Source: Pseudolactococcus reticulitermitis (GTDB lineage: Bacteria; Bacillota; Bacilli; Lactobacillales; Streptococcaceae). From it: a stretch of 64,000 nt of DNA. This document shows, piece after piece, positions 10,385 through 19,030 of the stretch (positions are counted from its first letter, which is position 1; each line of letters begins with the position of its first letter). The translations under genes and the position numbers were made by a program. The notes beneath the pieces are model-generated. The model saw only the letters and a list, made by a program, of their open reading frames with translations, was not told the DNA's origin and did not search any database. Location: NCBI RefSeq assembly GCF_002260845.1, contig NZ_BEDT01000006.1, forward strand, positions 1 through 64,000, read 5' to 3'.

Positions 10385-10798
10385 TTATGCTTTTGGTTTT
10401 TTAGTACCGTATTTAGAACGGCCTTGTTTACGATCTGTTACACCTGCAGTATCAAGTGCACCACGAACGATATGGTAACGTACCCCTGGCAGGTCTTTTA
10501 CACGTCCACCACGTAGTAACACCACGCTGTGTTCTTGTAAGTTATGGCCGATACCTGGGATATAAGCTGTTACTTCGATCAGGTTTGACAAACGCACACG
10601 TGCGAATTTACGCAAAGCTGAGTTGGGTTTTTTCGGTGTCATTGTGCCAACACGAGTCGCAACCCCACGTTTTTGTGGTGAGTTTGTTTTCGTTTGCACT
10701 TTTTTACGGCTGTTGAAGCCAACGTTCAAGGCTGGTGCTGTTGATTTAACAACTTTTGATTGACGCGGTTTGCGAACCAATTGGTTAATAGTAGGCAT
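10385..10798 (-). CDS. rpsL: 30S ribosomal protein S12
   Basis: S12 of 137 residues with the invariant [11 protein letters not shown] segment and the [17 protein letters not shown] block near the decoding site. These are the regions where streptomycin-resistance substitutions occur in other species; here they read as wild type. It is the first gene of the operon. The region before the ATG has no good ribosome-binding site, and a long RNA stem (10808-10861) lies directly upstream, which suggests control at initiation. Confidence 0.97.
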
Positions 10799-10807
10799 TT
10801 CTTGCTT

Positions 10808-10861
10808 GCTTTCAAAGGTTTATTTTGACTGACGTCAACAAGCGATAATAAACTTGAAAGC
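10808..10861 (-). promoter_or_regulatory. Long stem immediately upstream of rpsL
   Basis: GCTTTCAA-GTTTATT on the 5' side pairs with AATAAAC-TTGAAAGC on the 3' side, 15 base pairs with one small bulge. The loop holds the palindrome TTGACGTCAGTCAA. The 3' arm ends about ten bases from the rpsL start, in the place where a ribosome would bind. Two more hairpins occur at about 10900-10966 in the same leader. Confidence 0.5.
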
Positions 10862-11005
10862 ATTCCTTTCGTTTTTTCGTTTTGGGTGTGTCGGTATATG
10901 GTCGCTTATCCCAAGTTCCGACAAGAAGTTTGGATACTACATGAAATTGAGCGCGCTCAACTTCATGCTCCTTTTGTTTGACCAAATGAAAAAGTACCGT
11001 CTATC

Positions 11006-11034
11006 AGTTTAGCATACGTTTGCGAGGATGTCAA
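11006..11034 (-). promoter_or_regulatory. str operon promoter
   Basis: A perfect TTGACA (11029-11034), a 17-base spacer and TAAACT (11006-11011) lie on the minus strand. They give a leader of about 200 bases before rpsL. The 331-base gap before rpsL is thus promoter plus structured leader, with a terminator of the upstream locus at its far end. Confidence 0.75.
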
Positions 11035-11096
11035 TGGTTTTGATACAATATCTTCTTTGTCGGGCTGTCGGTATGTCATCCTGTTCGTCAGCATTG

Positions 11097-11123
11097 AAAA
11101 AACACGACTTTTGTCATGTTTTT
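11097..11123 (-). terminator. Terminator of the SipW-like export locus
   Basis: Stem AAACATGAC/GTCGTGTTT with a four-base loop and a run of T on the minus strand, just after the stop codon of the glycine-rich protein gene. Confidence 0.65.
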
Positions 11124-11129
11124 GCTGTC

Positions 11130-12152
11130 TTATTTGTAGATGTTTTCAATTGCTTGATGGTCTGCTTCGGTATCTGTCCATAGGAAAGCAATCCGAATTT
11201 GACCACCTTGTTGTTGACTACCACCTCGGCCTGTTGTTAGGGCAAAGCCAGCTGGTCTACCAATAATATCTTTCCAGTGGTCCGTCAAGTTTAAGGCATA
11301 TTTTCCGTTGAGTGACCCAGCAAGCCAAGAGCTACCACCTGAACCACTACCATAATTTCCTCCTGAAGTACCTTTAGCCCCACCAATACCGGATGTTTTT
11401 CCGCCACCGCCACCACCACCAGCATGATAATCTGCTGGAAACGCAGTGCCACTCTGACCATTTTTATTTGTCCCATTTCGGTTACCCAGACCATCCGTAC
11501 CTGCCACCTCACGATCGAGACCCGTATTATCAGAACCCACACCAGCGCCGCCAATCCCACCTTGTCTAGGTGTTTGTGCTGCAGCTACTGCACCATATTG
11601 TTGGCCACCACCAGCGCCGCCACCACCGCCGCCGGCAATCATGATATCAGTTCCTGTCGAGCTGCCTAGGCGAACAATGGAAGCGCCGCCACCACCGCCA
11701 CCTTGGCGAGATGATGCGTTACTTCCTATAAGTCCAGAATCCCCACCTGTACCACCTGCGCTATAGTCAGAGGCACCTGACGTTCGGTTATCCGAATTCG
11801 CTTGGTAGTAACCACCTCGGCCACCAAGCGAGTACCAGACTGTCTGGCCTTTTTCTAAGTAATAAACTTCTTCAACAACGCCACCTTTACCACCGGTTCC
11901 GCCGTTATTGGTCCCGCCATCACCGCCTTTGAGTTGAATGGCGTAGTATCCCGTCTTTTTTACCGTATATGAACCTTGACTTGCCGTGTTTTTGACATCT
12001 GGATTTACACCCTCACGCATGGCAACATCCGCTTCATTCGTCACATCCATCTCAATCGTCGCGTTGCGGACGTATTTAGACTGTGTCAAGCCGCCGAGAG
12101 CGAGGAGTGACAACAAGCCTAGAGTTAATGCTACTTTTGTTTTTGTTTTCAT
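11130..12152 (-). CDS. Secreted glycine-rich protein
   Basis: 340-residue protein with a positively charged, hydrophobic N-terminus ending in LTQSKYVRN. This resembles the AKY tail of the neighbouring signal peptides but has Ser instead of Ala. After a short spacer, residues of about 70-290 are dominated by Gly (runs such as GGGGGGAS and AGGGGGGAGGG) with regularly spaced aromatic residues, like the glycine-rich domain found in bacterial surface proteins and in the ALK receptor. A compact C-terminus (about 290-340) follows. There is no sortase motif or C-terminal anchor. GAGGAGG precedes the ATG. It is the last gene of the locus. A structural role in a surface layer or matrix is inference. 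Confidence 0.75.
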   Translation of the reverse strand: MKTKTKVALTLGLLSLLALGGLTQSKYVRNATIEMDVTNEADVAMREGVNPDVKNTASQGSYTVKKTGYYAIQLKGGDGGTNNGGTGGKGGVVEEVYYLEKGQTVWYSLGGRGGYYQANSDNRTSGASDYSAGGTGGDSGLIGSNASSRQGGGGGGASIVRLGSSTGTDIMIAGGGGGGAGGGQQYGAVAAAQTPRQGGIGGAGVGSDNTGLDREVAGTDGLGNRNGTNKNGQSGTAFPADYHAGGGGGGGKTSGIGGAKGTSGGNYGSGSGGSSWLAGSLNGKYALNLTDHWKDIIGRPAGFALTTGRGGSQQQGGQIRIAFLWTDTEADHQAIENIYK

Positions 12153-12165
12153 AAGTTCCTCCTCT

Positions 12166-12624
12166 CTATTCCATGACTTGGGTTGCTGTGAAAATGAGAT
12201 TTTTATCTGCTAACCCATAGGTTGACGAGATGTTAAAGGTATAACTTCCCGTTTCGCCTTGTTTGATAACCGTGAATGGCTCTAGCTCCGTTACTCTGGC
12301 GGTTGCACCGCCACTCATCGCTGGTTTGACCCAGACCTTACTGTTATTGGTAAAGGTGACGGTCATTTCTTGCGTTGCTTCAGTATTTTTGATTTCAAAT
12401 TTAAACCTGCCTGTATTATCACCCGTATCTGTCGCTACATTTTCAGTCATATTTTTATCGCCAGTTGTTTCTAACTTCGCTGTCACATTAAACCCTGCGA
12501 CTTTTGCTGATTCTCTTGCTGAGCCGACTTGGCTGACGTATTTGGCATAGGTCGCGCCTGTGCCGACGGCTCCCAAGATGGCTAGGTAGACTAGCACTCG
12601 GTAAACTTTCTTATGATGTGTCAT
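12166..12624 (-). CDS. Small exported protein with SipW-type signal
   Basis: 152 residues. The N-terminus has a basic start, a hydrophobic core and then GATYAKYVSQV, followed by SAKVAGF. This matches the AKY...AR[LV]AK[FYW] pattern of the three longer paralogues in the locus. The rest is a beta-rich domain with alternating hydrophobic residues (for example EMTVTFTNNSKVW and GSYTFNI), as expected for a TasA- or camelysin-like fold. It ends without an anchor. AGGTGA precedes the ATG. It sits between the second signal peptidase and the glycine-rich protein, with gaps of 8 and 13 bases, so it is very probably co-transcribed. Confidence 0.72.
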   Translation of the reverse strand: MTHHKKVYRVLVYLAILGAVGTGATYAKYVSQVGSARESAKVAGFNVTAKLETTGDKNMTENVATDTGDNTGRFKFEIKNTEATQEMTVTFTNNSKVWVKPAMSGGATARVTELEPFTVIKQGETGSYTFNISSTYGLADKNLIFTATQVME

Positions 12625-12632
12625 ATTTTCAC

Positions 12633-13136
12633 CTACTTTTTATCTTTTTCCCGTGATGCGGTCAACCATTTGTCGCCCTCCCAGATGGCGATTAAGCCTG
12701 CCGCTAAGACCACTAAGCCTAGTGGTTCTTGCAACCAACGCAGGAGGTAGCCGAGTTTAGGAATGGTCAGGACGACTTTGCCGTAAATATCGCTGGTCTT
12801 GATTGGCTGGTCGGCACCGTCATTGGCGTCGCCTTTGGTGATGACGGTATCGCCATCTATCGACTGTATCCGATGGGTAACGGGATAGCTGGGCGATTTG
12901 TAGGTAACGATGTCGCCTTTTTTGTAAGTTGCCTGTGGCACCTGATGGACGATGACGATGTCGTTCACTTGAATCGCTGGCGCCATGCTCCCACTGACGA
13001 CGATGGCTTTGCCAACTCCCAAAAACATGGGAAAGGCTGTTTGACCGGTCTTGCGTTGCACGAGTTCATAAACATTGCCGATCAAGATGAGACCTAGCAG
13101 GGTCGCTACGACCACACTGATTGTTTTTTTGATCAT
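12633..13136 (-). CDS. SipW-like (ER-type) signal peptidase I, second copy
   Basis: 167-residue membrane signal peptidase. The catalytic Ser is in VSGSM (about residue 50). The general base position is His (PVTHRI, about residue 88) instead of the Lys of ordinary bacterial LepB, and the conserved Asp is in KGDAND. Ser-His chemistry is the mark of the SipW/Sec11 class. One membrane helix lies at each end (about 5-25 and 133-153). An upstream start 19 codons earlier is open, but the ATG at 13136 follows AAAGGGGG. SipW in Bacillus cleaves TasA and TapA; here the likely substrates are the AKY proteins on both sides. Confidence 0.85.
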   Translation of the reverse strand: MIKKTISVVVATLLGLILIGNVYELVQRKTGQTAFPMFLGVGKAIVVSGSMAPAIQVNDIVIVHQVPQATYKKGDIVTYKSPSYPVTHRIQSIDGDTVITKGDANDGADQPIKTSDIYGKVVLTIPKLGYLLRWLQEPLGLVVLAAGLIAIWEGDKWLTASREKDKK

Positions 13137-13155
13137 AGCTCCCCCTTTGCTACGT

Positions 13156-13881
13156 TTAATCGATTTGCACTGCCTGATAGGCAAGTCTGACAACTAGGCG
13201 TAAATCAACACCGCTATCAACCAAATCAGCGAACGCTGTATCCTGTGTATCATTCCCGACGTAAGGCCATTCCCATGTCACGATAACTTTGTCTCTTGCT
13301 GGAACAGTCAAGGTTTTAAGCTTTGTCTCAAAGTCCACTAAAGTACCCGTTACTTTCTGGTTTGTACCTTTAACGGTTGCTGTAAAATTGATGGCACTTT
13401 TTACGTTTGCTAATTCCGAAGTGAAGCCATTGCCATCTGCGCCGCCATAGGTGCCACTTGTGACATAGTTTGTAATCCCATCTGTTCCCGGGACGATGTC
13501 GACAAACTTAATCTGATAGGCAACTTCTGTGTTGCTATCAGGGTCAAGCCCTGAAAAATCAACTACCGTGCTACCTTTAGCACCTGGTGCCAGCAAGTTA
13601 TCGCTGTCAAAGCCAATAGGATTTGCTGTTACTGCTTGACTTGAGCCTAAATCTCCGCCAGAAGCATCGTCATTCTCCCCTGCCGGCGTATTCGTATAAC
13701 TACCCGAAAACAAATCTAGGCTACCTGACAAGGCTGTCGGATTGACCGTCCATTTGGCGAGGCGAGCTGTCTGTTCTGATGGAATTTCGCGTCTATATTT
13801 GGCGTAGCTGTAACCTATCGAGCCAGCAGATAAGGCAGCGACACCAATGACTAGAAGGACTAGTCGTCTAGTTTTCTTCAT
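13156..13881 (-). CDS. Exported TasA/camelysin-like protein, paralogue 3
   Basis: 241 residues. A signal region ends in YSYAKYRRE, then TARLAKWTV, then a LDLFSGSY segment and LLAPG. These four blocks appear in the same order in the two upstream paralogues (14619-15254 and 15328-15945). The body is beta-rich and acidic with many Thr, Asn and Gly, and ends without a membrane anchor. The start overlaps the end of the LPTT-protein gene by 14 bases, which suggests coupled translation; AAAAGGAG lies inside that gene. Probable substrate of the adjacent SipW-like peptidases. The fibre-subunit role is inferred from the fold class. Confidence 0.75.
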   Translation of the reverse strand: MKKTRRLVLLVIGVAALSAGSIGYSYAKYRREIPSEQTARLAKWTVNPTALSGSLDLFSGSYTNTPAGENDDASGGDLGSSQAVTANPIGFDSDNLLAPGAKGSTVVDFSGLDPDSNTEVAYQIKFVDIVPGTDGITNYVTSGTYGGADGNGFTSELANVKSAINFTATVKGTNQKVTGTLVDFETKLKTLTVPARDKVIVTWEWPYVGNDTQDTAFADLVDSGVDLRLVVRLAYQAVQID

Positions 13882-14599
13882 CTGCTTTTCTCCTTTTCCA
13901 TAGTATTAGCCCGATAATCAGGATGACCATGCCACCTAAGGCGCTTGCCAAAACGGGATTTTTTTCGCCAAATTTCCCGAGTGTTGTTGGTAAACTTCCG
14001 AGTGTTGTCGGCAAGGTTTGACCGATGGCTTGGGTATTGCCGTTTGAGGTTGTCGGTAGATGGGTTTCTTTTTTCGCATCGTCTTTTTCAAAGTAGAAAT
14101 TAACCGATGTGACTTTGTCCTTGTCCATCGCTGCTAAGCCGTGTGCGGTGTCTTCTGCATCTGTCAGAGACGCATCGTTCCAATCTAAGTGAAAATGGTA
14201 GCTATAGGTTGTACCTGCTGGAATTTTCAAAACGTCACTTTCGATGGTTTCCTCAACCACATTATTTTTCGTTTGATGGTTAAAGAGCACCTCTTGGTCA
14301 CGACTGACTTTGATGTTCAAGGGCACGCCGGATTGGTCGTCTAAGTCAAATACCATCTTGTAGTCAATTTCATGTGAATTGGTATTTTTGATGGTAAACC
14401 AGTAGTCTTCCTTGTAGCCTGGGTAAAAGACTGAATTTGAGAAAATGGGTACTTTGTTATCAGCCGTCCAAGCGATACCATTGTGATCCGACACGGTCAC
14501 TGTCGCACCCGATGTCGCATCTGCGGCATTTACCTTTTCAACACTCCCAGATAAGCACACCGACAAAGCAAGGAGACCCATGAGTAATATTTTTTTCAT
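13868..14599 (-). CDS. Membrane-anchored surface protein with LPTT repeats
   Basis: 243 residues. It has a conventional Sec signal (ending in VNA-AD near residue 26), unlike its neighbours. An extracellular beta-rich domain spans about 30-180. A stalk carries LPTTS and then LPTTLGS-LPTTLGK, encoded by a 21-bp tandem repeat. The end is GEKNP, a hydrophobic helix (about 212-234) and KRRK. The layout is that of a sortase substrate, but Leu follows LPTT, so no exact LPXTG remains. It may be cell-wall linked by a tolerant sortase or simply membrane held. It is a good candidate for the base that tethers the exported paralogues. Confidence 0.72.
   Translation of the reverse strand: MKKILLMGLLALSVCLSGSVEKVNAADATSGATVTVSDHNGIAWTADNKVPIFSNSVFYPGYKEDYWFTIKNTNSHEIDYKMVFDLDDQSGVPLNIKVSRDQEVLFNHQTKNNVVEETIESDVLKIPAGTTYSYHFHLDWNDASLTDAEDTAHGLAAMDKDKVTSVNFYFEKDDAKKETHLPTTSNGNTQAIGQTLPTTLGSLPTTLGKFGEKNPVLASALGGMVILIIGLILWKRRKADEEN
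13977..14018 (-). repeat. 21-bp tandem repeat encoding LPTTLG
   Basis: Two adjacent 21-base units, both starting CCGAGTGTTGT on the plus strand and differing at four to five positions, encode two consecutive LPTTLG motifs in the surface protein. The duplication moved the motif relative to the following GEKNP sequence. Confidence 0.8.
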
Positions 14600-14618
14600 T
14601 TGCTTGCTCCTATCGCTT

Positions 14619-15254
14619 TTAATTGGCTTGTGTCAAGACTGCTGCTGCAGAGAGCGTTAAAGTATAACCACCTGTTGGGTCATCTGCATATTGCTCACGT
14701 GCCAAAGCCGTCTCAACATCATCTTTACCATTTTCCAAAGCCCATGAAACTGTGACTGGAACTGTGACGACATCGCCGATGGTATGGGCGGGGACGTCTT
14801 TGATTTTGGCAAAAGATAAGCCACCATGACTTAAGTCATAGACCGTGCCAGTGTAGACAATCCCTGTAGATGTATCGCCAATGACAACTTTTAAGTCTTC
14901 TTGGATGTCGTCTGGTAGATTGGTTTCAACTTTTGTTCTGTTATCAAATCCCAATGTCGCTTTGACTTCAGATGTCACATCAAACGTTAAGGTGCCTGTT
15001 GCTTCAAAGTTGGGCGCAATGAGGTTGTCTATAGTCGTTGCAATGTCTGCACCAGCTTCGCCGTCACCATTATCATAAGTGTTGGCAAAGAGGTCTAAGT
15101 CGGATGCACCTAGGTAAAACTTAGCGACGCGCGCCGAGTCATCCTTTGTGTCGACTTGCAAAACATATTTTGCAAAGGTGCCACCAAAGACGCCAGCTGT
15201 TAGAAAGGCTGCAATCGCTGCTGTGGTGACAACGCGTTTTCTTGTCATCTTCAT
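14619..15254 (-). CDS. Exported TasA/camelysin-like protein, paralogue 2
   Basis: 211 residues. Signal GGTFAKYVLQV, then SARVAKFYL, LDLFANTY and LIAPN, in the same order and spacing as paralogues 1 and 3. The C-terminal half is a beta-rich domain with regular Val/Thr alternation and ends in LTQAN without an anchor. The first ATG at 15254 has AAGGAG eight bases upstream; a second ATG two codons later is possible. Located between paralogue 1 and the anchored protein. Predicted SipW-type export; the polymerising role is inferred. Confidence 0.75.
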   Translation of the reverse strand: MKMTRKRVVTTAAIAAFLTAGVFGGTFAKYVLQVDTKDDSARVAKFYLGASDLDLFANTYDNGDGEAGADIATTIDNLIAPNFEATGTLTFDVTSEVKATLGFDNRTKVETNLPDDIQEDLKVVIGDTSTGIVYTGTVYDLSHGGLSFAKIKDVPAHTIGDVVTVPVTVSWALENGKDDVETALAREQYADDPTGGYTLTLSAAAVLTQAN

Positions 15255-15327
15255 ATCGTGTTCTCCTTCGTATATCTTGACCTTTCATCTCGCGCTATCT
15301 TTGGCAAGTGTCTCAGTACTAGCTTGC

Positions 15328-15945
15328 TTAGTCGATTTGTGTGTTGATACCTACGAATGTGAGAGTCACTTCTTGATTTGCTGTTTTACTAGCTTCTCTT
15401 GTATCATCTTCATCGTAAGTGGCATCAGCTCCTTCCTCAAAGACATACGTCCAAGTCACAGGGACTTCGATTGTATTTGTTGCATTTGCCTCCCTTGTCG
15501 TCGTATCGCCAATCTGAACCGTCTTATCCGCTTCAAGTGCTGCTTTAATGTCTGCAAGTGTCGCAGGAGTTGAGTCAGCGCTGTCAATCTTAACATTATT
15601 AATTTTAATCCGGCTCAACAAGTGCTCTGTCGCAGTAACGCCTGTCAACTGCACAACGGTTTCTGTTTTCACTTCTGAATCTGATACAAATTTGATGCTG
15701 GCTTCATTGGTCGTGCCAGGTGCAATCACTTTAGCACCATCACTTGCCAGAACCGTACCGTCATAGCTGTCTGCAAATAAATCTAATTCATTTGTTTTAT
15801 TAAACGAATATTTTGCCAAACGTGCCGTATTAGGTAGCGTTTCTACTGATTTCGTGTACTTGGCAAATGTGCCTGCCCCGCCTGCTACGACGCCGATGGT
15901 GATGAGTGCGATTGCACTAACTACTTTTTTATTTAATTTAATCAT
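15328..15945 (-). CDS. Exported TasA/camelysin-like protein, paralogue 1
   Basis: 205 residues. Signal GAGTFAKYTKSV, then TARLAKYSF, LDLFADSY and VIAPG. A beta-rich acidic domain with many Thr and Glu follows, ending in the VTWTYVFEEG and EVTLTFVGINTQID strands. No anchor. AAAGGAG precedes the ATG. It is the first substrate-type gene after the leading signal peptidase, 75 bases downstream. In Bacillus, TasA with SipW forms biofilm fibres; similarity here is at the level of signal type, size and composition, not a clear sequence match. Confidence 0.76.
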   Translation of the reverse strand: MIKLNKKVVSAIALITIGVVAGGAGTFAKYTKSVETLPNTARLAKYSFNKTNELDLFADSYDGTVLASDGAKVIAPGTTNEASIKFVSDSEVKTETVVQLTGVTATEHLLSRIKINNVKIDSADSTPATLADIKAALEADKTVQIGDTTTREANATNTIEVPVTWTYVFEEGADATYDEDDTREASKTANQEVTLTFVGINTQID

Positions 15946-16020
15946 GATATGTCTCCTTTTAATGTTGTGACCCTCAGATGCTCTGACGGTTTAAGTTCGA
16001 TGTGTGCCATGTTGTTTGTT

Positions 16021-16623
16021 TTAATCAGTAATCGAATTTGTCACCACCCCACTTTCATGTTTAGATGCTTTAGGCTTAAAGGCCTGCATGATGTGATCGC
16101 TCCCAAATAAAAGGATGAGTGGTAACACGATAAACAAGAGCATGCCTTTCGGCGATTGCAAGAACATCAGTTTTGAACCGAAGCCCTTGAGATGCGTCTG
16201 ATACACCCCGACGATTTGCGATGGGTTAATCACACCCTTGTCGCTGGTGTTATTGGCATCGCCTTTCGTCTCATAAACGTGATCCTCGCCATGCGTCACC
16301 ACGCGGTTAATCCGGTGGGTAACCAAGGCTTTGCTTTCCGAATGGGGATCGACGAAAGTGATGATGGTGCCTTTTTTAAGATTTAACGTTTTTTTCGTTT
16401 TGTGAATAATCACTAAATCTCCTGCATTAAAATCATCCGCCTTGTCGCCCGCCATCGAGCCTGTGTTCACAATCAAGGGGCTATACCCCAAAATGCTAGG
16501 TGCTTTTGACTGCTGAACGGTTGACTGGAACATCATCCAGAGGTTACCGATTAACACAACCGCAAAGCCGATTGTCAGCACCCACATCACGATATTCCCA
16601 ACATGTCGTGCCAATTTCTTCAT
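16021..16623 (-). CDS. SipW-like (ER-type) signal peptidase I, first copy
   Basis: 200 residues from the start used here. One N-terminal membrane helix (about 9-30), catalytic Ser in NTGSM (about 56), His in LVTHRI (about 103) in place of Lys, Asp in KGDANN (about 122), and a second helix near 150-170. The Ser-His arrangement places it with SipW/Sec11. An ATG two codons upstream is also in frame, but AAGGGGG is correctly spaced only for the second ATG. It leads the eight-gene locus. The two peptidases are clearly different in sequence, so they may divide the substrates between them. Confidence 0.85.
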   Translation of the reverse strand: MKKLARHVGNIVMWVLTIGFAVVLIGNLWMMFQSTVQQSKAPSILGYSPLIVNTGSMAGDKADDFNAGDLVIIHKTKKTLNLKKGTIITFVDPHSESKALVTHRINRVVTHGEDHVYETKGDANNTSDKGVINPSQIVGVYQTHLKGFGSKLMFLQSPKGMLLFIVLPLILLFGSDHIMQAFKPKASKHESGVVTNSITD

Positions 16624-16771
16624 CCACATCCCCCTTACTTTCTATCTTAATCCATAAAACCGAGTGCCATGTTCAATAATCAGTTTTTTACATCTTTTTC
16701 ATGATTTACTAATTATCTATACTCCGATTCTAACAAAAAGAAAACAAATAAACAAACGATATGTGAACTTT

Positions 16772-16939
16772 TTATAAGAATTTTATTTTAAAACGCTGCT
16801 TTTTCGCTTCTGATAAACTCGACGATGTTATTCCTAATTCTGTTAAATACCAATGGTCTAGACCTATTTCAGCCATTAAAAAACGAGCTAACCAACGCTC
16901 GTTCAAACACGTTACCCAGTCAATCAACGCTGTCACCAT
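16772..16939 (-). CDS. Possible small protein (55 residues), unrecognised
   Basis: An open frame on the minus strand begins at ATG 16939 and encodes a Leu- and Trp-rich N-terminal half and a basic C-terminus. The composition looks protein-like, but the ribosome-binding site is weak (GAGAGA, close to the ATG). A terminator-like hairpin (AACGAGC/GCTCGTT followed by T6 on the minus strand, 16878-16908) lies inside it. It could be a gene remnant or chance. The rest of the 16624-17158 gap is AT-rich with no gene that I can see beyond the dacA promoter. Confidence 0.25.
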   Translation of the reverse strand: MVTALIDWVTCLNERWLARFLMAEIGLDHWYLTELGITSSSLSEAKKQRFKIKFL

Positions 16940-17123
16940 TCTCTCATCTTGTTATTAACCAATAAAATTTAATCCCTTAGTCGCTACTAACATTTTTTGA
17001 TCTTGCTTTTCTTTTGGCTACGCGTTATCTCATTTTTGGGCATTTAAATTTTTTATGTCCAGATTTTTTTATCACATCTCCACTAAAATCACAAGATAAG
17101 TAGCCGATCATTGTCGACTTGAG

Positions 17124-17151
17124 TTGAGAATATCTGAAATTTTGATATAAT
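17124..17151 (+). promoter_or_regulatory. dacA promoter, predicted leaderless
   Basis: TTGAGA, a 16-base spacer and TATAAT (17146-17151) end only seven bases before the first ATG. Transcription would start at or next to the start codon. Confidence 0.65.
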
Positions 17152-17158
17152 TTGACTT

Positions 17159-18481
17159 ATGATGAATAGAATAAATAGTATGACTAGAATCAAGCAACTA
17201 ATATTAGGACTGACGCTCGGTTTAGCCTTTCTCTTGCCTGTGGTGCAGGCAAGGCAAGTCTGGGCTGATAGTGCCTATGACGCCCCTGCAAAGGCTGCCA
17301 TTGCCATTGATCCCGACAGTGGAAAAATTCTTTATGCTAAGAATGCTGATGAGGCGATGGGCATCGCCTCGACGACGAAACTTCTCACAGCCTACATGAC
17401 CCTAGATGCCATCAAAAAAGGGACATTGCACTGGGAAGACAAGGTCGAGATGAGTGAATACGCCTATGCCCTGACGCAGGATCCGCAGGCGTCCAACATC
17501 GCCGTCATGGATCCGAAAGAGGCGTTTACCATCCGCGATTTGTTCAATGCAGCGATGATTCAGTCGGCCAATTCGGCGGCGATTACACTGGCTGAGAAAA
17601 TCGGCGGTTCTGAACCGAAATTCGTCGACATGATGAAAACACAGCTGGCTTACTGGGGCATCACAGATGCTAAGCTAGTCAACGCTTCTGGTCTGAATAA
17701 CAGTGTCCTCGGCAATAACATCTATCCCGGTTCATCCGAAACCGACGAAAATATGCTGTCGGCTAAAGACCTCGCGATTATTTCTCAGCATTTAATCCGT
17801 GATTTTCCGGAAGTTTTGGACGTGACTAAGCAGACTATCGCGACTTTCGATAAGGGCGGTGCTTCTGAGCAGACCTTAGCGACCTATAACTACATGCTGA
17901 TGGGACTGCCCGCCGCGCGTGGTGGCGTGGATGGCTTGAAAACTGGTACGACTGAATTTGCCGGCGCTTGTTTTGTCGGCACAACCGTGCAAAATGACTT
18001 TCGGATTATCACCGTCGTCCTCAATGCTGATAATGCCGATACTGACGAGTATGCCCGCTTTACAGCAACGGGTAGTCTGATGAATGAAGTCTACGGCAAC
18101 TGGCAAGCTCAGAAAATTGCGACCAAGGGGATTAAGATGGACAATGCCGAAGCGCCGACCAAGCTAACGGTGGTTGATGGGCAAAAAACCAGTGTCAACG
18201 TCCTACCCGCCGATGATTTTTCAACCGTCGTGCCGATGAGTGATACAGATGCAACGACAAGCATCTCTTTTAATAAGAAACAAGCTGCACCCGTCACGGC
18301 TGCCATCAAGAAAAATCAGAAACTGGTCAAAGTGAGCTTCCAAATCAAGGACAAGCTCGGCTACTTGCCAGGCTCTGATGGCAATACGTTCTATCTGACA
18401 GCGACTCAACCTGTCCCGCGTAGTAATGCGGTTAAGGTCATGTGGAACCATTTTGTTAAGTTCGTGAATGACAAATTATAA
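17159..18481 (+). CDS. dacA: D-alanyl-D-alanine carboxypeptidase (PBP, DacA type)
   Basis: 440-residue low-molecular-weight penicillin-binding protein that trims the terminal D-Ala from peptidoglycan stem peptides outside the membrane. A signal peptide covers about 1-37 (cleavage after VWA). The catalytic motifs are complete: STTK (Ser71, Lys74), SAN (136-138) and KTGT (262-265). A C-terminal beta domain follows, and the last 15 residues form an amphipathic helix for membrane attachment. Three ATGs (17159, 17162, 17180) are possible and none has a ribosome-binding site. The -10 box seven bases upstream suggests a leaderless message. It is followed by its own terminator. Confidence 0.95.
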   Translation: MMNRINSMTRIKQLILGLTLGLAFLLPVVQARQVWADSAYDAPAKAAIAIDPDSGKILYAKNADEAMGIASTTKLLTAYMTLDAIKKGTLHWEDKVEMSEYAYALTQDPQASNIAVMDPKEAFTIRDLFNAAMIQSANSAAITLAEKIGGSEPKFVDMMKTQLAYWGITDAKLVNASGLNNSVLGNNIYPGSSETDENMLSAKDLAIISQHLIRDFPEVLDVTKQTIATFDKGGASEQTLATYNYMLMGLPAARGGVDGLKTGTTEFAGACFVGTTVQNDFRIITVVLNADNADTDEYARFTATGSLMNEVYGNWQAQKIATKGIKMDNAEAPTKLTVVDGQKTSVNVLPADDFSTVVPMSDTDATTSISFNKKQAAPVTAAIKKNQKLVKVSFQIKDKLGYLPGSDGNTFYLTATQPVPRSNAVKVMWNHFVKFVNDKL

Positions 18482-18535: not shown

Positions 18536-18748
18536 TTATCTATTTTGATAGTAATTTTGAACCCATTTCCGCACAACGGCATCATAGAGCTTGCCAATTT
18601 TAGGATTTTTGGAAATCACGTCAACTGCCCGCTCTAAATGATTTCTAAATTCTTGGACTGTGTTTGGCACACTGTAATGTTTGTTGATGTAACCTTCAAT
18701 ATCCTCGATATTTTCCTGTGCTTCTAGCGTTAAAATCATTTCTTTCAC
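18536..18748 (-). pseudogene. Truncated RelE/ParE-type toxin
   Basis: 70 codons from a GTG start (18746-18748) that overlaps the expected antitoxin stop as GTGA. The N-terminal part looks like a RelE/ParE toxin (ILTLEAQENIEDIEGYI, then SKNPKIGKLYD). Family members run to about 90-100 residues and need the C-terminal strands for activity. This frame stops after VQNYYQNR, and the dacA terminator begins a few bases on. It is probably inactive. An alternative ATG lies three codons inside. Confidence 0.6.
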
Positions 18749-19030
18749 TCATCCCAACCCTTCTGCTTTTGATAATCAGAAAAGCTCACTGATTTTTCAT
18801 CGTTTCCTTCTACTTGCTGATGGGCATCATCAAATGCTTTTTTATAAACTGATGCTTTTTTCACGATAATCATTTAACTCATTGACCAGAGATTCTAAAA
18901 ATTCTAGCTCAACAACAGCATATTTGCCATAGCCATTCTTAGTTAAAATAACGGCAGAGTCACTTGAAACTTTATTAATCACTTTCGTATAATTGGATAA
19001 TTCTGAAATAGGCACGATTGATTGCTTCAT
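18747..19030 (-). pseudogene. Antitoxin (Phd/RelB-like) with frameshift in an A run
   Basis: The first 57 codons give a Phd/YefM-like N-terminus (MKQSIVPISELSNYTKVIN) that binds DNA in this family. The frame then closes at 18842 with SISL-stop. If one A is removed from the A6 run near 18852-18860, the frame continues for about 32 codons (ASVYKKAFDDAHQQVEG... to WDE-stop) and ends exactly at the toxin start, as in intact operons. The lost tail is the toxin-neutralising part. The frame is either decayed, read by slippage, or a sequencing error. AGAGGTG precedes the ATG. Confidence 0.65.

Follow-up and report, generated by a model that had tools for sequence, protein, structure and literature searches.

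TapA of Bacillus subtilis reportedly contributes its N-terminus to TasA (PMC10151520), and the cell-side partner protein shares features with the fibre subunit (PMC9674648, PMC10151520). A study of Bacillus cereus presents TasA-CalY-CapP as a sortase-independent system of co-assembling subunits and a chaperone-like helper (PMC13082335), and in Clostridium perfringens the sipW-bsaABCRSD operon is reported to encode a small exported protein whose secretion and polymerisation depend on SipW (PMC7395162). Here we analysed an eight-gene locus in the first 64,000 nucleotides of contig NZ_BEDT01000006.1 of Pseudolactococcus reticulitermitis (C6:1-64000, hereafter the window, in a genome of 2.17 Mb and 20 contigs), which an earlier note had proposed to be a SipW-like export system for a surface fibre or matrix. 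In the list of open reading frames (ORFs) the genes follow one another on the minus strand in the order sip1, A, C, LPTT, D, sip2, E and Gly. We consider it probable that this cassette builds a surface fibre by donor-strand exchange.

The locus and the B. subtilis tapA-sipW-tasA operon have in common a SipW-class peptidase, exported sandwich subunits, of which A is modelled with the fold of the TasA fibre, and a subunit-like partner protein. The Bacillus operon contains one peptidase, and the TasA-CalY-CapP locus of B. cereus contains one SipW. The lactococcal locus, in contrast to that of B. subtilis, has two peptidases, three to four long subunits together with E and a glycine-rich protein, and an AKY signal end, and there is no detectable sequence homology between the two. 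Moreover, TapA is reported to give a donor strand, whereas the alignment suggests that LPTT lacks one and would receive it. The B. cereus locus has camelysin-type sequences, which the lactococcal proteins do not match. The C. perfringens operon likewise combines several secreted genes but has one peptidase and includes a two-component system. The bundling pilus of Pyrobaculum calidifontis (7UEG) is archaeal and gave 9-11% identity in alignments. The locus follows the working principle of SipW/TasA fibres, and none of the systems compared has its protein family, its second peptidase or its exchangeable end module. No description of a two-SipW locus or of this subunit family was found in the literature searched, most subscription papers lying outside that search.

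Predicted exported subunits, one modelled with the TasA-fibre fold

The three long paralogues claimed in the earlier note proved to be real: A (15328-15945, minus strand, 205 aa), C (14619-15254, minus, 211 aa; a candidate shaft subunit) and D (13156-13881, minus, 241 aa; with a WxW...DxxDT...QID signature) form one protein family, together with protein B of related loci. E (12166-12624, minus, 152 aa), a short relative encoded directly after sip2 and a candidate minor or terminal subunit, was matched by the paralogue profile at 8.0e-6; comparison of its profile with that of the family gave 50.9% in one direction and 13.9% in the other, and we assign it weakly to the same domain family. None of the four reached the cut-off of any Pfam or NCBIfam family. 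A profile of the mature parts gathered relatives in other Bacillota and, in addition, the LPTT proteins. The features of this wider family, which are majority features with few invariant columns, are [AS][KR][YF], then ARVAK[FWY], LF, APG, EV, WxW, DxxDT and a C-terminal Q[ILV][DN].

The relatedness of the signals was confirmed as well. The signal ended in [AS][KR][YF] (AKY in A) in 17/17 lactococcal subunit, E and Gly proteins from three species, and in none of the 3 LPTT proteins, 6 peptidases or 17 other ORFs with a hydrophobic N-terminus in the window, a background from which ORFs matched by the locus profiles were excluded. Thus, A, C, D and, weakly, E are well predicted to be exported proteins of one domain family with a common [AS]-K-Y signal end.

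We modelled mature A with AlphaFold2 from an alignment of 40 rows, and its best structural match was the TasA fibre; A is therefore well predicted to have the fold of fibre-form TasA. We propose that the peptidases cut just before K-Y and free an N-terminal strand that would fill the open sheet of the subunit that follows. The shaft would consist of A, C and D, with B added in relatives.

Several observations weigh against this reading. The TM-scores of the A model against 8AUR were moderate (0.48/0.39), with root-mean-square deviations of 7.9 and 5.8, and A was the only subunit modelled well. A shallow model of C from 11 rows had a pLDDT of 52.1 and no Foldseek match at E<=0.001; it was judged uninformative and replaced by that of mature A. 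By sequence, the TasA/camelysin family PF12389 had no match in the genome at E<=0.001 (one of 14 control genomes, B. subtilis, matched), and the mature-domain profiles scored <=0.8% throughout against TasA/CalY-type profiles built from nine proteins of Bacillus and related loci. The model of the SipW-cognate signal, TIGR04088, proposed earlier as a check, found nothing in the genome at E<=10, whereas 8 of 14 control genomes matched at that threshold and 2 passed the cut-off. These results imply that by sequence the subunits are not members of the TasA family, whereas the SipW/TasA logic first suggested is supported by fold. The kinship of E is weak, as its 13.9% from the other side indicates, and secretion, cleavage site and polymerisation are predicted. 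The exported proteins could instead remain separate adhesins associated with the wall or membrane, their TasA-like fold being a common immunoglobulin-like sandwich that forms no fibre; we regard this as unlikely.

An iterative search with signal-containing seeds had reached TasA/CalY-type proteins. We dropped this result because seeds of the mature parts no longer did so, and ascribe it to the shared signal.

Two SipW-class peptidases in fixed positions

The first gene, sip1 (16021-16629, minus, 202 aa), encodes a SipW/ER-type signal peptidase and starts at ATG 16629 or ATG 16623, the latter being favoured by both relatives. The position-2 peptidase gene, sip2 (12633-13136, minus), encodes 167 aa from its ATG; in the ORF list it begins farther upstream, at TTG 13193. 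Both products keep the catalytic Ser, His and Asp residues (S58, H105 and D124 of sip1 were invariant across 5 aligned rows) and pass TIGR02228 (94.8 bits for sip2 and 70.8 for sip1; cut-off 51.85), which confirms the presence of two different peptidases of the Ser-His (SipW/Sec11) class. The Bacillus SipW equivalog NF046067, with a cut-off of 190, was missed by both (84.6 bits for sip1, 66.6 for sip2), and their identity to each other was just 33-36%.

In a tree of 53 peptidases, hand-picked from the locus maps and labelled by gene position, 15 of the 16 position-2 peptidases fell on one side of a branch with a support of 100/99, and sip2 belongs to this separate branch. One row of L055, from an adjacent pair and on a long branch, lies among them. 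The labels changed 3 times for position 2 and 4 times (at least 3) for position 1, compared to about 14 times when shuffled. The position labels are thus strongly, though not perfectly, grouped, which implies that the pair did not arise by recent duplication in lactococci, and the two peptidases are well predicted to be old, distinct and fixed in position.

In a Streptococcaceae metagenome-assembled genome (L042/L055, G032:C27) we observed two overlapping adjacent peptidase genes with one subunit-like protein; the first of these peptidases groups with the position-2 branch, itself at the end of a very long branch.

The LPTT protein as a candidate anchor

LPTT (13868-14599, minus, 243 aa) combines an ordinary signal peptide, a subunit-like domain, LPTT repeats, a C-terminal membrane segment and a KRRK tail. 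Profile comparison placed it in the wider family at 97.6-97.8%, and at 5.2% when compared to the lactococcal paralogues alone. It aligns from column 20 of the subunit profile, past the donor stretch, and in L147 and L148 the protein in the same slot starts directly at the first core strand (by eye). Thus, LPTT apparently has no N-terminal donor extension. Because it has the subunit domain and apparently no strand to donate, LPTT would accept the last strand and could hold the fibre at the membrane or wall through its C-terminal segment.

The sorting-signal model TIGR01167 gave 17.2 bits for LPTT in the window (cut-off 15.9) and no match in either relative, and the repeats (LPTTL) are degenerate. 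The repeats, which the earlier note had assigned to an anchored protein, are therefore no firm sortase signal. In other loci the protein of this slot ends in LPKTG, LPETG or LPDTG (L147, L148, L150 and L215, by eye), and TIGR01167, the NCBIfam LPXTG model, was passed in L147, L148 and L150; in L153, L154, L206 and L218 the protein bears an N-terminal membrane segment (by eye). The means of attachment differ, and the purpose is apparently the same. The passes of TIGR01167 in the window and in these three loci would also suit a pilus in which a housekeeping sortase joins LPTT and its partners covalently. However, no sortase was matched by Pfam or NCBIfam among the eight products (the rest of the genome was not searched for sortases), and the C-termini of A, C and D (TQID, TQAN and VQID) carry no sorting signal. 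Together with the degenerate repeats and the unmatched relatives, this makes a sortase-built pilus highly improbable.

Recurrence of the gene order in other Bacillota

The subunit family was matched in 3/394 other genomes of the order, 5/397 others of the phylum and, in the class of G713, 15/391 genomes including G713, which implies that the family is sparse at the search sensitivity used. Ten non-lactococcal loci show the order peptidase 1, exported [AS][KR][YF] protein, anchor-like protein, peptidase 2, exported [AS][KR][YF] protein. Seven (L150, L154, L205, L206, L207, L208 and L215) come from seven genomes of five families, and three (L071, L073 and L082) from metagenome contigs, Clostridia by their titles. 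The subunit slot of L071 and L073 holds a divergent protein unmatched by the profile, and L082 has an additional ORF ahead of the subunit. L153, which has no peptidase 1 beside its subunit, and G516, whose set is split over two contigs, one with intervening genes, were excluded from the ten. The two-peptidase gene order is thus not unique to this locus and recurs in distantly related Bacillota.

Other loci were more variable. L152 has the order peptidase 2, E-slot protein, Gly-like protein, peptidase 1 and two subunits; L153, L204 and L151/L218 are either partial or interrupted, the genes of L209-L214 and L216/L217 are arranged differently, and L155 (G800) has the anchor-like protein alone. 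The maps leave out the contexts of the G996 and G1216 matches. A different two-peptidase cluster was seen in Lachnospiraceae/Oscillospiraceae (L063, L087 and L124, less regularly L216 and L217), with AWF-type exported proteins, a peptidase, one protein of ~520-607 aa and one of ~690-880 aa, and then a second peptidase.

Gly (11130-12152, minus, 340 aa) occupies slot 2 in the window, slot 1 being the gene that directly follows peptidase 2 or, in L147-L149, the anchor. Its SKY signal end is followed by an ALK/LTK-type glycine-rich domain (PF12810, 44 bits; cut-off 24.5), so that the glycine-rich component noted earlier is real. PF12810 was found in at least 1/398 genomes of the phylum (G516), a lower bound because that search missed the window's own copy. 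The Gly-like protein of L152 scored 24.2 bits, just below the cut-off (24.9 in a second search). By a script rule, the [AS][KR][YF] end was present in 14/15 slot-1 and 11/13 slot-2 genes (rows hand-picked from the maps, L151/L218 and L204 excluded as cut by contig ends), compared to 1/116 background ORFs from 25 loci, chosen for a hydrophobic N-terminus and with ORFs matched by the locus profiles again left out; L149 (both slots) and L206 (slot 2) lacked it. The slot-2 proteins of L147, L148, L149, L205 and L215 have in common a stretch like [FM]YF[TV]S[ND].L.E after the signal and may be a family of exchangeable display proteins.

A possible division of labour between the peptidases

In 10 mapped loci, peptidase 2 directly precedes the slot-1 gene. 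A profile tied the slot-1 protein of L150 to E (2e-5), and slot-1 proteins were profile-matched in L205 (7e-10), L215 (5e-6) and L152 (3e-10), the profile used for L205 and L215 having been built from slot-1 proteins selected by hand in other loci. We propose that peptidase 2 serves the module behind it, in which E would be a minor or end subunit accompanied by the slot-2 protein. As Gly offers a K-Y strand ahead of its glycine-rich domain, that domain would be displayed on the fibre. A tentative extension is an old, undescribed class of Bacillota surface fibres in which peptidase 1 matures the shaft and peptidase 2 the terminal module, made of E and an exchangeable display protein that would need only a K-Y donor strand to enter the fibre. 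Assembly would then proceed in the order in which the proteins are processed, and lineages could exchange the domain on display. We regard this as possible, although we would not give it even chances.

Some of the evidence runs counter to such a division. The sixteenth position-2 peptidase (L206) lies outside the position-2 branch, among the position-1 peptidases. The likeness of slot-1 proteins to E elsewhere is mostly one of place, signal and motifs seen by eye, and in L206, L207 and L208 the assignment is by these and by size; L071 and L073 have much larger proteins there, of 545 and 342 aa. Moreover, L147, L148 and L149, from the window's order, keep the gene order without peptidase 2, which shows that it is not essential everywhere. 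A fibre might therefore form with peptidase 2 redundant and lacking substrates of its own, the more so as E and Gly share their [AS]KY end with A, C and D. However, its branch is separate and old, its ratio of nonsynonymous to synonymous substitution rates (dN/dS) is 0.09-0.12, and it keeps its place before slot 1, so we consider redundancy rather unlikely.

Genomic setting and distribution in lactococci

The eight genes were confirmed to lie on one strand, separated from sip1 to Gly by 75, 73 and 19 bases, an overlap of 14, and then 19, 8 and 13 bases. The terminator noted earlier at the end of the locus was also borne out: a terminator-like hairpin with a T run lies 3' of Gly (11080-11132, minus), with a folding energy of -16.1 kcal/mol equalled by 0/200 shuffles, though a terminator consensus scan did not list it. 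The flanking genes are rpsL (10385-10798, minus, named by eye) and dacA (17159-18481, plus, named by Pfam). The G+C content was 0.44-0.49 across most of the locus, with 0.40-0.41 at the upstream edge and 0.42-0.49 in the flanks; thus, composition gives no clear mark of foreign origin. No insertion-marking repeats of at least 16 bases were found within 10780-17160. A 28-base near-perfect palindrome (10940-10967) lies between rpsL and the locus, and a small ORF pair beside dacA (18536-19030, minus) resembles by eye a RelE/YefM toxin-antitoxin pair.

Among the matches listed, the nearest named holders of the locus were Lactococcus chungangensis CAU 28 and L. raffinolactis NBRC 100932; the wide search with sip1 covered the best 80 of 242 relatives. 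Both species (L018 and L017, respectively) have the full set and an extra long paralogue, B, between A and C, where the window has the 73-base gap. Their identity to the window was 79-87% for sip1, 81-87% for sip2, 63-82% for LPTT and 50-55% for Gly. The dN/dS ratio was 0.07-0.35 in 23/25 gene comparisons, the other two (both of C) being saturated, which indicates that substitutions favour synonymous sites.

The subunit search found the locus in 2/11 other genomes of the genus, and the peptidase search found both peptidases in the same two only, G005 and G008 having a peptidase of another, TasA-type locus. In 7/11 dacA loci of the genus, own included (L223-L229), rpsL and dacA are adjacent, 258-304 bases apart; the sites of G005 and G008 lie outside the resolved set, and G002 had no dacA match. 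The block lies between rpsL and dacA in the window and in L. raffinolactis, and between hslO/dus-like and murE-like genes (named by eye) in L. chungangensis. The locus is thus an insertion, at more than one site in the genus. C and LPTT had no tblastn match in 72,556 plasmid records. These SipW-type loci of G005 and G008, L045 (G005:C12) and L046 (G008:C5), encode a protein that by eye is TasA-like (AFFSD...TITAGTLDL), together with one large protein and an exported one with a membrane tail.

Implications

If the proposed fibre is real, TasA-type fibre building would also take in a family, found in lactococci and Clostridia, that our sequence searches did not link to TasA, and the question arises why one fibre should need two signal peptidases. 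If a K-Y strand alone suffices for entry into the fibre, it would provide a simple handle for protein display on harmless lactococci.

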